The translations under genes and the position numbers were made by a program. Below are positions 36,069 to 53,227 of a stretch of 64,000 nucleotides of DNA, in pieces. This stretch comes from Vespertiliibacter pulmonis (GTDB taxonomy: Bacteria > Pseudomonadota > Gammaproteobacteria > Enterobacterales > Pasteurellaceae): positions 744,001 through 808,000 of the forward strand of contig NZ_CP016615.1 in the NCBI RefSeq assembly GCF_013377275.1, given 5' to 3'. How positions within the stretch are numbered: position 1 is the first letter of the stretch; each line of letters starts with the position of its first letter. The notes under the pieces are model-generated. The model was not told the DNA's origin and made no database searches. It was given only the letters and a program-made list of their open reading frames with translations.

Positions 36069-36090
36069 TTTCTCGACAAAGCTCACAAAA
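36069..36090 (+). promoter_or_regulatory. Candidate CRP/CRP-S site upstream of sxy
   Basis: The core is CTCGA-CAAAGC-TCACA (36072-36087) with T-rich left and A-rich right flanks. Its left half is CRP-S-like and its right half is canonical CRP-like. It lies about 118 bp before the sxy start. Assuming a -35 at 36108-36113 (TTGCAA) and a -10 near 36131-36136 (AATTAT), the centre falls close to -62, a class I activator position. sxy is known to respond to cAMP-CRP in relatives. Confidence 0.6.
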
Positions 36091-36197: not shown

Positions 36198-36839
36198 ATG
36201 AACCATCTCGAAAAAGAAACACTACAGATTAGAGAGCTACTACGCCCAATTATTGGTGAAACAAATGTCATTACTTATTTTTCTTACTACGGTATTCAGA
36301 AAAATGAATTGATGTTTGCCTTATATAAAAATAAAAAATTTTATCTCAAACTATCTCCTCACGATATCCCCTATGCATTAATGCAACAAGGAGTTGAATC
36401 CCTTGTCGACCCAAATATCGCAGCCTCACATAAATATTATCTTTTACCAGACTCCCTTTTATCTCATCTCACCCACTACGCTTTCTGGTTTACCAATAGT
36501 CTCGCTTATATCCAACAAAATAAACACGCTTCCTATTCTTATAAAAAGAAACAAATCCGCTCACTTCCTAATATGAATTATCAATTAGAAAGAAAATTAA
36601 GAAAAATCCATATTTATTCAATTGAAGAACTTATTGCTAAAGGTGAGATCGATACTTTTGTTGATCTCATAAGAATTGGCGAAGAAGCCAATCATATGAC
36701 ACTATTCAAACTTTACGGGGCAATTCACCATAAATTTATCTATACATTATCACCAACTATACAGCAGAACTTACTTAACGAAGTTGATGATGCTCTATAT
36801 TTAGCAGGATTCCGCCGCCGTTTTTCTGTAAAAACATAG
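36198..36839 (+). CDS. sxy: Competence regulator Sxy/TfoX
   Basis: A 213-residue protein with the two TfoX domains. The N-terminal domain shows YFSYYGIQKNELMFALYKNK, which parallels H. influenzae Sxy (YGLF...ETMFAIWQNKKLYL). The C-terminal domain shows LPNMNYQLERKLRKIHIYSI and the ending FRRRF. Sxy makes CRP able to act at CRP-S promoters and so switches on DNA uptake. The gene is alone between the S10 operon and dcuB, with GGAG six bases before the start and a terminator after it. A GAGAA/TTCTC hairpin lies in the leader (36142-36156), where H. influenzae sxy mRNA also has regulatory pairing. Confidence 0.85.
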   Translation: MNHLEKETLQIRELLRPIIGETNVITYFSYYGIQKNELMFALYKNKKFYLKLSPHDIPYALMQQGVESLVDPNIAASHKYYLLPDSLLSHLTHYAFWFTNSLAYIQQNKHASYSYKKKQIRSLPNMNYQLERKLRKIHIYSIEELIAKGEIDTFVDLIRIGEEANHMTLFKLYGAIHHKFIYTLSPTIQQNLLNEVDDALYLAGFRRRFSVKT

Positions 36840-51466: not shown

Positions 51467-52624
51467 TCATAAACTCCTAACATACCCTCCACTAACTTGC
51501 TTAACCGCTCCTAATAATTCTAACGCTAATAACTCAGCTAAAATATTTTCAACCGCTATTTCTGTAGCTTCTGCCAAATCATCAACACTGATCGGATCAA
51601 ATCCAATTTTTTCAATTAACCGTTGCTGACAAGCGGTAAGATTTACCTCATTTTTTGCATTTTTTTGCCCAAATCCAACCGATTGCTTGCCAATGTTTTC
51701 TCCCTTTTTGACTGAAAATAGAAAAGTCTGTTGTTCTGCTCTTTGAGGTGGTTGCCACTGAAACGAAATTGCCTCTAAAATATCTTCAATAGATTCAACT
51801 AATAGCGCTCCCTGTTTAATCAATTTATGACACCCTTGGCTATACGGATTTTGTACCGCATTCGGCAATGCAAATACTTCCCTCCCCTGCTCCAAAGCAT
51901 AGCGAGCGGTAATCAATGAACCACTATTGATCGTCGCTTCAACCACCAATGTGCCAAGGGATAACCCACTAATAATGCGATTACGGCGAGGGAAATTTTC
52001 CGCCAAAGGAGGTTGATCAGGAAAAAATTCAGAGACTAGCGCCCCATTATTTTTAATAATTCTCTCGGCTAATTTTTTATGACGAGTAGGATAAACTCGA
52101 TTTAGCCCACTGCCTAAGACTGCAACGGTCGTCCCCTTTAGCTCTACTGCTTTTTGATGACAAAATCCATCAATACCAATGGCTAAGCCACTGGTAACCG
52201 CTAATCCATTACGCACAAGCTCCGTTGCAAAATAATTTGCCCAATATTCCCCATAAGGGGAATAATCTCGGCTACCAACTATCGCAATTTGAGGGTACGA
52301 TAAACTTTCAATATTACCTTGTACAAAAAGAATCGGCGGGGCGGTACTAATCTGACGAAGCAAGAAAGGATAATATTCATCAAATAACGTTAAAATAAAC
52401 TGACAAGCGGTCGGATTATGCCATTTTTCTGCATTTTCAATCCACGTCCAATCTGGTTTAAACCAACGTTGGATCTGCTTATCATTCCAACCAATTTGGC
52501 GTAATTGTGTTTTGTCGTACTGACAAAACTCACTAAAATCAACTTCATTCAACAATCTGCCAATACGTTGTGCACCAAGCTGAGGTACTTGTAATAATCG
52601 TAATAATTCATTGGTATATATCAT
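51467..52624 (-). CDS. dprA: DNA-processing protein DprA
   Basis: A 385-residue protein that loads RecA on incoming single strands during transformation. The Rossmann-like core shows AIVGSRDYSPYG, VTSGLAIGIDGFCHQKAV, VLGSGLNRVYPTRHK and INSGSLITARYALEQGREVF. An N-terminal SAM/HhH-like part (1-90) and a C-terminal winged-helix-like part (about 325-380) complete the family layout. It is divergent from def, with a CRP-S-like site between. Confidence 0.96.
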   Translation of the reverse strand: MIYTNELLRLLQVPQLGAQRIGRLLNEVDFSEFCQYDKTQLRQIGWNDKQIQRWFKPDWTWIENAEKWHNPTACQFILTLFDEYYPFLLRQISTAPPILFVQGNIESLSYPQIAIVGSRDYSPYGEYWANYFATELVRNGLAVTSGLAIGIDGFCHQKAVELKGTTVAVLGSGLNRVYPTRHKKLAERIIKNNGALVSEFFPDQPPLAENFPRRNRIISGLSLGTLVVEATINSGSLITARYALEQGREVFALPNAVQNPYSQGCHKLIKQGALLVESIEDILEAISFQWQPPQRAEQQTFLFSVKKGENIGKQSVGFGQKNAKNEVNLTACQQRLIEKIGFDPISVDDLAEATEIAVENILAELLALELLGAVKQVSGGYVRSL

Positions 52625-52689
52625 TTTTCTCCCCTACTGTTTCCCTAATCCTAATAAAACGTCTAAAATAACCTACAAAAATTTTTCTA

Positions 52690-52711
52690 CTTTTCGACAG
52701 AGATCACAAAA
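52690..52711 (-). promoter_or_regulatory. Candidate CRP-S site between dprA and def
   Basis: The core is TTCGA-CAGAGA-TCACA (52693-52708), with T/A-rich flanks. Its centre is about 76 bp from the dprA start, the same distance as the comM element. It ends at the base before the def start codon, so it also occupies the def ribosome-binding region. dprA belongs to the Sxy regulon of H. influenzae. Confidence 0.6.
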
Positions 52712-53227
52712 ATGGCTGTATTAGATGTTTTAATTTACCCCGATGAAAATTTAGCGAAAGTGTGTGAACCTATCACTCACGTTGATGATGAACTTCGTCA
52801 ATTTATTGATAATATGTTTGAAACAATGTATGAACACGAAGGAATTGGTTTAGCCGCTCCCCAAGTGAACGTATTAAAACGTGTGATTACAATAGATATT
52901 GAAGGGGATAAAGCGAACCAAATTGTCCTTATTAACCCTGAAATTATCGAAAGTGCAGGTGAAACAGGAATTGAAGAAGGCTGTTTATCTATCCCTGGTT
53001 GTAGAGCCTTAGTACCACGTAAAGAAACTTTAACTGTTAAAGCCCTTGACCGTAATGGCAATGAATTTACGTTAAACGCTGATGGATTATTATCCATTTG
53101 TATTCAACACGAAATCGACCACCTCAATGGCGTTCTTTTTGTTGATCATATTTCACAACTGAAACGCCAACGTATTAGAGATAAAATGCAAAAACTCAAA
53201 AAACAACTTGCACGGGCAAAATCATGA
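52712..53227 (+). CDS. def: Peptide deformylase
   Basis: A 171-residue metalloenzyme removing the formyl group from nascent proteins. The three motifs are intact: [17 protein letters not shown] (metal Cys) and QHEIDHLNG (HExxH). Its usual partner fmt is not next to it; instead it overlaps a glutathione transferase gene by ATGA. No good Shine-Dalgarno is seen, because the candidate CRP-S site fills that position. Confidence 0.97.

Follow-up and report, generated by a model that had tools for sequence, protein, structure and literature searches.

Comparative sequence evidence indicates that the 22-bp element between the divergent competence gene dprA and the peptide deformylase gene def is very probably a CRP-S operator of dprA that has fused with the leader of def. 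As a whole, we propose a two-way element, in which the same bases would serve as the dprA operator, form the end of the def leader and lower def output when dprA is activated, and we place this complete reading at slightly less than an even chance. An earlier note, which had suggested that activation of dprA could change expression of the deformylase gene on the other strand, appears partly right: operator and leader are fused in one branch of the Pasteurellaceae, with a plausible cost to def.

The two genes lie divergently on either side of an 87-nt gap in the window (the whole stretch of 64,000 nt analysed, to whose coordinates positions refer unless stated otherwise), within a closed genome of 1.83 Mb that groups with the Pasteurellaceae records found by DprA. 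The letters at 52690–52711 read CTTTTCGACAGAGATCACAAAA, occupy the def-proximal quarter of the gap and end at the base immediately 5′ of the def ATG, so that letters and coordinates both bear out the placement given earlier. The features of the locus and its comparators are as follows.

51467–52624, minus strand: dprA, competence DNA-processing protein (NCBIfam name), with its ATG at 52624.
52712–53227, plus strand: def, peptide deformylase (NCBIfam name), with its ATG at 52712.
52690–52711, no strand assigned: CRP-S-type operator of dprA, a TTTTCGA-N6-TCACAAAA near-palindrome, assigned by matrix score, position and conservation; its distal half-site is TTTTTCGA.
52700–52703, plus strand: GAGA, the putative def Shine–Dalgarno core within the operator spacer, kept in relatives and common in unlinked def leaders.
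52664–52669, plus strand: predicted def −10, TAAAAT, with TA[AG]AAT at a comparable position in relatives.
About 52676, plus strand: predicted def transcription start, giving a leader of about 36 nt.
52648–52653, minus strand: predicted dprA −10, TAGGAT, from TAnnnT spacing in relatives, with a predicted start at about 52641.
52670–52675, minus strand: position of the dprA −35, a weak TAGGTT in the own genome; 28 of 41 relatives have TTGGCT or TTGGTT.
2200–2221, no strand assigned: CRP-S operator of comM, a comparator (consensus and matrix).
36069–36090, no strand assigned: CRP-S-like site 5′ of sxy/tfoX, of the same hybrid type as at dprA (consensus and matrix).

Searched with the bare consensus at up to three mismatches, the window yielded three matches against 1.35 expected, which is not significant (20 of 100 shuffles reached three); across the whole genome, the consensus pattern occurs at 64 places and the reversed pattern at 23. 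We constructed a scoring matrix from a further 11 sites at competence genes in this genome (recA, comF, radC, rec2, rlmN, comEA, comM, comN, ligA, comA and pilA; except where named by NCBIfam, these are what we take the open reading frames to be), leaving out the dprA and sxy sites. With this matrix, the dprA site scores 18.2 bits, second in the window to the comM site (26.2 bits). Scores of at least 18.2 were reached twice in 3.84 Mb of Markov DNA with the dinucleotide make-up of the window, and the chance expectation of such a score in the 87-nt gap is about 3e-5. The site is weaker than the 11 matrix sites, which score 22.0–28.9 when each is left out in turn, and it ranks second lowest among the 13 scored sites. 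It is a hybrid, with one half carrying TCGA (CRP-S-like) and the other TCACA (CRP-N-like): the CRP-S bases C at position 6 and G at position 17, as opposed to T and A in CRP-N, are present in one half and absent from the other. It stands 5′ of a known competence gene, as does the site in most of the family, and the genome encodes Sxy (TfoX_N match over the cut-off at 36237–36506). From site centre to start codon, dprA has 76.5 nt and comM 75.5 nt (ATG at 2286), in agreement with the earlier figure of about 76 bp, equal to that at comM. Though weaker than the other competence sites, the dprA site is convincing as a predicted CRP-S operator, and the matrix score, together with the conservation described below, upholds its earlier description as a CRP-S-like element of dprA. 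The site 5′ of sxy is likewise a hybrid (one half TCGA, one TCACA) and lies 107 nt before the ATG at 36198, suggesting possible self-activation of the competence regulator.

Among 140 genomes of the family, a DprA match was obtained in 139 and a Def match in 139; one genome (G104, genus g35), a single contig listed as complete, yielded neither but did yield ComA, and the stretch may be absent from it. The region upstream of dprA was examined in 90 of the 139, from which two (L079 and L107) were dropped because tblastn did not find the dprA start, leaving 88. The compact def/dprA layout is present in 41 of these, from 17 genera, and in every one the offset of the best site from the def ATG is −1, 0, 1 or 2 nt, which settles the operator observation as more than chance. 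As all 41 genomes form one clade, these conservation counts are not independent. They contain 13 distinct site sequences, in which both half-sites are conserved and two spacer bases are free to vary; the TCACA half occurs in 29 of the 41. The distal half TTTTCGA, at least 15 nt before the ATG, is kept in 39; of the other two, L058 has TTTCTCGA, and in L057 (genus g8; the named record of the same sequence, L209, is Bibersteinia trehalosi) this half has decayed and the site scores 12.6. The fused layout was also found in named Actinobacillus, Mannheimia, Glaesserella, Ursidibacter, Nicoletella, Muribacter, [Haemophilus] ducreyi and [Haemophilus] sputorum, records that largely repeat the counted genomes and were kept out of the counts. 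With the exception of [Haemophilus] sputorum and [Haemophilus] ducreyi, none of the Haemophilus records examined was found to have def within 1,200 bases of dprA, and the E. coli smf/def gap contains no such site (best score −2.4).

Five genera (g2, g16, g21, g32 and g38) have a def–dprA gap that has grown to 146–226 nt, and there the site is still at def, 122–204 nt from the dprA start codon. Since the added sequence is located past the dprA −10, towards dprA, the site can still be regarded as the dprA operator in these wide-gap genera. In some relatives, the stretch inserted between this −10 and the start of dprA has the look of repeats when inspected by eye: L014 and L050 show inverted repeats, and L011 a tandem repeat of the TTTCCAC type. 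In four further genomes (L088, L092, L096 and L100), def adjoins dprA across a wide gap of 179–239 nt with no site at def, and three of them have a good def Shine–Dalgarno sequence. In the remaining 43 genomes, the genes are apart or def was not found in the stretch; a CRP-S score above 12 occurs 5′ of dprA in 34, and no such score occurs there in the other nine. The unlinked def leaders, read by eye, have no CRP-S site abutting the ATG and mostly have GAGA. When the two genes are apart, the site thus goes with dprA and def retains its GAGA ribosome-binding site, indicating that the site has fused with the def leader in the compact layout.

The earlier note held that the element takes the place of a Shine–Dalgarno sequence; instead, the element would contain one, the putative GAGA core sitting inside the spacer. 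GAGATC or GAGA is kept in the operator spacer of 40 of the 41 compact-layout relatives, and from this conservation the spacer GAGA probably serves as the def Shine–Dalgarno sequence. Across 30 unique leaders, the half-sites hardly vary, the third position of the def-side half excepted; two spacer bases carry 0.48–0.49 bits, and AGATC is preceded by G in 29. This pattern would fit two constraints on one stretch, the operator halves and a Shine–Dalgarno core. AGATCACA is also an ordinary CRP half-site, so that the Shine–Dalgarno reading has a single GAGA base specific to it. The own def GAGA pairs weakly with the 16S tail (−2.9 kcal/mol, 48th of 55 open reading frames in the window). Of 20 unlinked def leaders fetched, 19 were used for pairing energies (L156 was left out); one of the 20, L150 (genus g17), has def near dprA in its genome. 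Their median pairing energy is also −2.9 kcal/mol, and the operator is therefore not the cause of the weak Shine–Dalgarno sequence. These leaders mostly have a −10 resembling TAAAAT, TAGAAT or TACAAT about 40 nt before the ATG, with GAGA a few bases before the ATG. An RNA hairpin formed by the palindrome and hiding the def start was considered and rejected, as native leaders fold weakly (−1.7 to −8.6 kcal/mol) with no common structure.

In the dprA direction, TAnnnT peaks 47.5 nt from the site centre, where it occurs in 34 of the 41 genomes (about 1.2 expected per position). At the other 11 competence promoters of the own genome, TAnnnT is most frequent at 48.5 and 47.5 nt (five and three cases, 0.3 expected for each), and 35 dprA sites of the second clade show a weak peak at 47.5–49.5 nt (5, 5 and 4, about 1 expected). 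A dprA −35 (TTGGCT or TTGGTT) lies 25.5 nt from the site centre in 28 of 41, with a spacer of 16, and is poor in the own genome. The predicted dprA promoter has class I geometry, with the site near −59.5 of the predicted start; class I spacing for CRP-S promoters is reported in a passage of PMC6728893. On the other strand, 31 of 41 genomes have a def −10 of the form TA[AG]AAT between −47 and −50 relative to the def start codon; the ten without it comprise nine of genus g2, in which a TATAAT is seen by eye nearer the def ATG, and L056. The operator centre falls at about +25 of the predicted def start. A generic promoter scan returned no sigma-70 pair at the proposed def and dprA promoter places.

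A second competence operator runs into a growth gene in the same family. Across the 59 Pasteurellaceae loci examined, the comA CRP-S operator invariably overlies the initiation codon of ponA (PBP1A), which is divergent from comA. All 30 loci retrieved through ComA share the site TTTTTCG-ATG-AAG/CGG-ATC-GCA/GTA-AAA, with the start codon at positions 8–10 (in L180 the alignment begins at residue 27 and the automatic offset is one base off, but its letters agree with this register). A further 29 genomes, taken from outside the compact layout, were scored with a matrix that omits the comA site, and in all 29 this register gives the best window (scores 9.0–24.9); five have a changed distal half (GGA; 9.0–15.4), and two start with GTG. 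By eye, the isoleucine codon is ATC in all 59 ponA starts, which favours a constraint at the DNA level, although the protein start MKI/MRI is also conserved. The comA/ponA overlap occurs in both family branches examined, whereas the dprA/def fusion is limited to one. Across the wider order, the same register was best in 6 of 30 mrcA loci with scores of at most 5.3 (4.5 for E. coli K-12 mrcA), values explicable by protein sequence alone, and the overlap is therefore not claimed beyond the family. The own-genome comA/ponA operator lies at genome positions 1254153–1254174 (L043:1501–1522), and the relatives are loci L160–L189 and L272–L300. Elsewhere in this genome, the recA operator (L032:1501–1522) reaches into the 3′ end of the gene before it, and an upstream stop codon immediately precedes the comN operator (L041:1501–1522).

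In the mechanism that we propose, CRP and Sxy bound about 60 bp before the dprA start would recruit RNA polymerase in class I fashion, while the same bases, as RNA, would be the end of the def leader, with the spacer GAGA as its Shine–Dalgarno sequence. With the operator and ribosome-binding functions on the same bases, the site would be held fixed relative to the def ATG. The bound complex, at about +25 of the def transcription unit, might act as a roadblock, and the def and dprA promoters, interdigitated over the same 75 bp or so, could compete for the promoter region. RNA polymerase usually covers −55 to +20. With footprints of this extent, polymerases at the predicted def (52676) and dprA (52641) starts would cover the same DNA; given these overlapping footprints and an operator near +25, lower def transcription would be expected in competent cells. 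From this geometry, we tentatively propose that dprA activation may lower def output in competent cells, a claim with almost an even chance of being right. A broader version, in which CRP–Sxy at the dprA and comA operators also lowers def and ponA, and with them deformylation and cell-wall synthesis, so as to slow growth, with the placement of the sites selected for this effect, seems unlikely.

The strongest alternative is compaction: a shrinking gap would have put the dprA operator on the def leader, where the Shine–Dalgarno sequence locked it, with no measurable change in def. This has a real chance of being correct, somewhat short of even. The recA and comN sites likewise run into their neighbours, and the def Shine–Dalgarno sequence is equally weak in unlinked genomes, so the overlap has not obviously changed def; moreover, just part of a culture turns competent, 10–50 percent in the account given in PMC6957337. 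Set against this, any binding must reach the starts of two growth genes, ponA in 59 of 59 loci and def in 41 of 41, and the predicted def and dprA promoters occupy the same DNA.

Very improbable is a symmetric −10 (TAAAATA) shared by def and dprA, with polymerase facing either way and the operator in a class II position at −42.5. In its favour, 23 of 41 genomes have TAnnnT at 30.5 nt from the centre of the site. The class I position is nevertheless more strongly conserved (34 of 41; mean match 4.12 versus 2.98), ranks first at the other competence promoters of the own genome and is accompanied by a suitably spaced −35. A bidirectional promoter with a shared −10 was accordingly rejected, the better-kept dprA −10 lying 17 nt further from the operator. 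We give an equally slight chance to def being the main target of CRP, through the CRP-N-like half, with dprA incidental: the TCACA half is present in 29 of 41 genomes and the site remains at def when dprA is far, but the spacing to the dprA −10 is held even then, and unlinked def genes show no site. The least probable reading, a conserved def leader with accidental CRP-S likeness, is in keeping with AGATC and AAAA, which occupy the places anticipated for a ribosome site and an A-rich start region, but does not fit a distal half kept in 39 of 41 genomes at least 15 nt before the ATG, nor a site at 34 of 43 unlinked dprA genes and at none of the unlinked def leaders.

Under the favoured two-way reading, the dprA site resembles other Pasteurellaceae CRP-S operators in being a 22-bp near-palindrome at a competence gene with class I spacing, and differs from them in having a CRP-N base in one half and in its location inside the leader of the divergent def, where it takes in the putative ribosome-binding site. 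The comA/ponA site is likewise a competence operator running into the start of a divergent growth gene, but it covers the ponA start codon and first codons, and does so in both branches. CRP bound downstream of a promoter can repress, and an activator at one promoter can block a divergent unit; compared with such repression, the proposed effect on def would depend on Sxy and hence on competence.

The sites themselves have been reported for A. suis: Table 2 of PMC3739930 lists a dprA site, TTTTGTGATCTCAATCGAAAAA, at −181, identical to the site found here in genus g2, and a comABCDE site at −133. The text of that paper is without 'def', 'deformylase', 'ponA' and 'divergent', and no mention of the def/dprA or ponA/comA operator overlaps was found in the open full-text literature searched, where nothing among the entries listed dealt with def or ponA during competence. 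The dprA and comA sites are thus already published for A. suis, and their overlaps with def and ponA are new as far as searched. A weak dprA motif is given for H. parasuis in a passage of PMC5809987; it is absent from three g18 genomes, but so is another site of that strain, so that none of the three can be assigned to that species, and a correction of the motif was dropped.

Collectively, the locus would provide a clean and widely conserved case of an activator operator and the ribosome-binding site of a divergent gene on shared bases, and it offers a direct way to ask whether expression of two growth genes falls during competence in the Pasteurellaceae. Both def and ponA are antibacterial targets. 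In practice, altering the dprA or comA operator would also alter the def leader or the ponA N-terminus.
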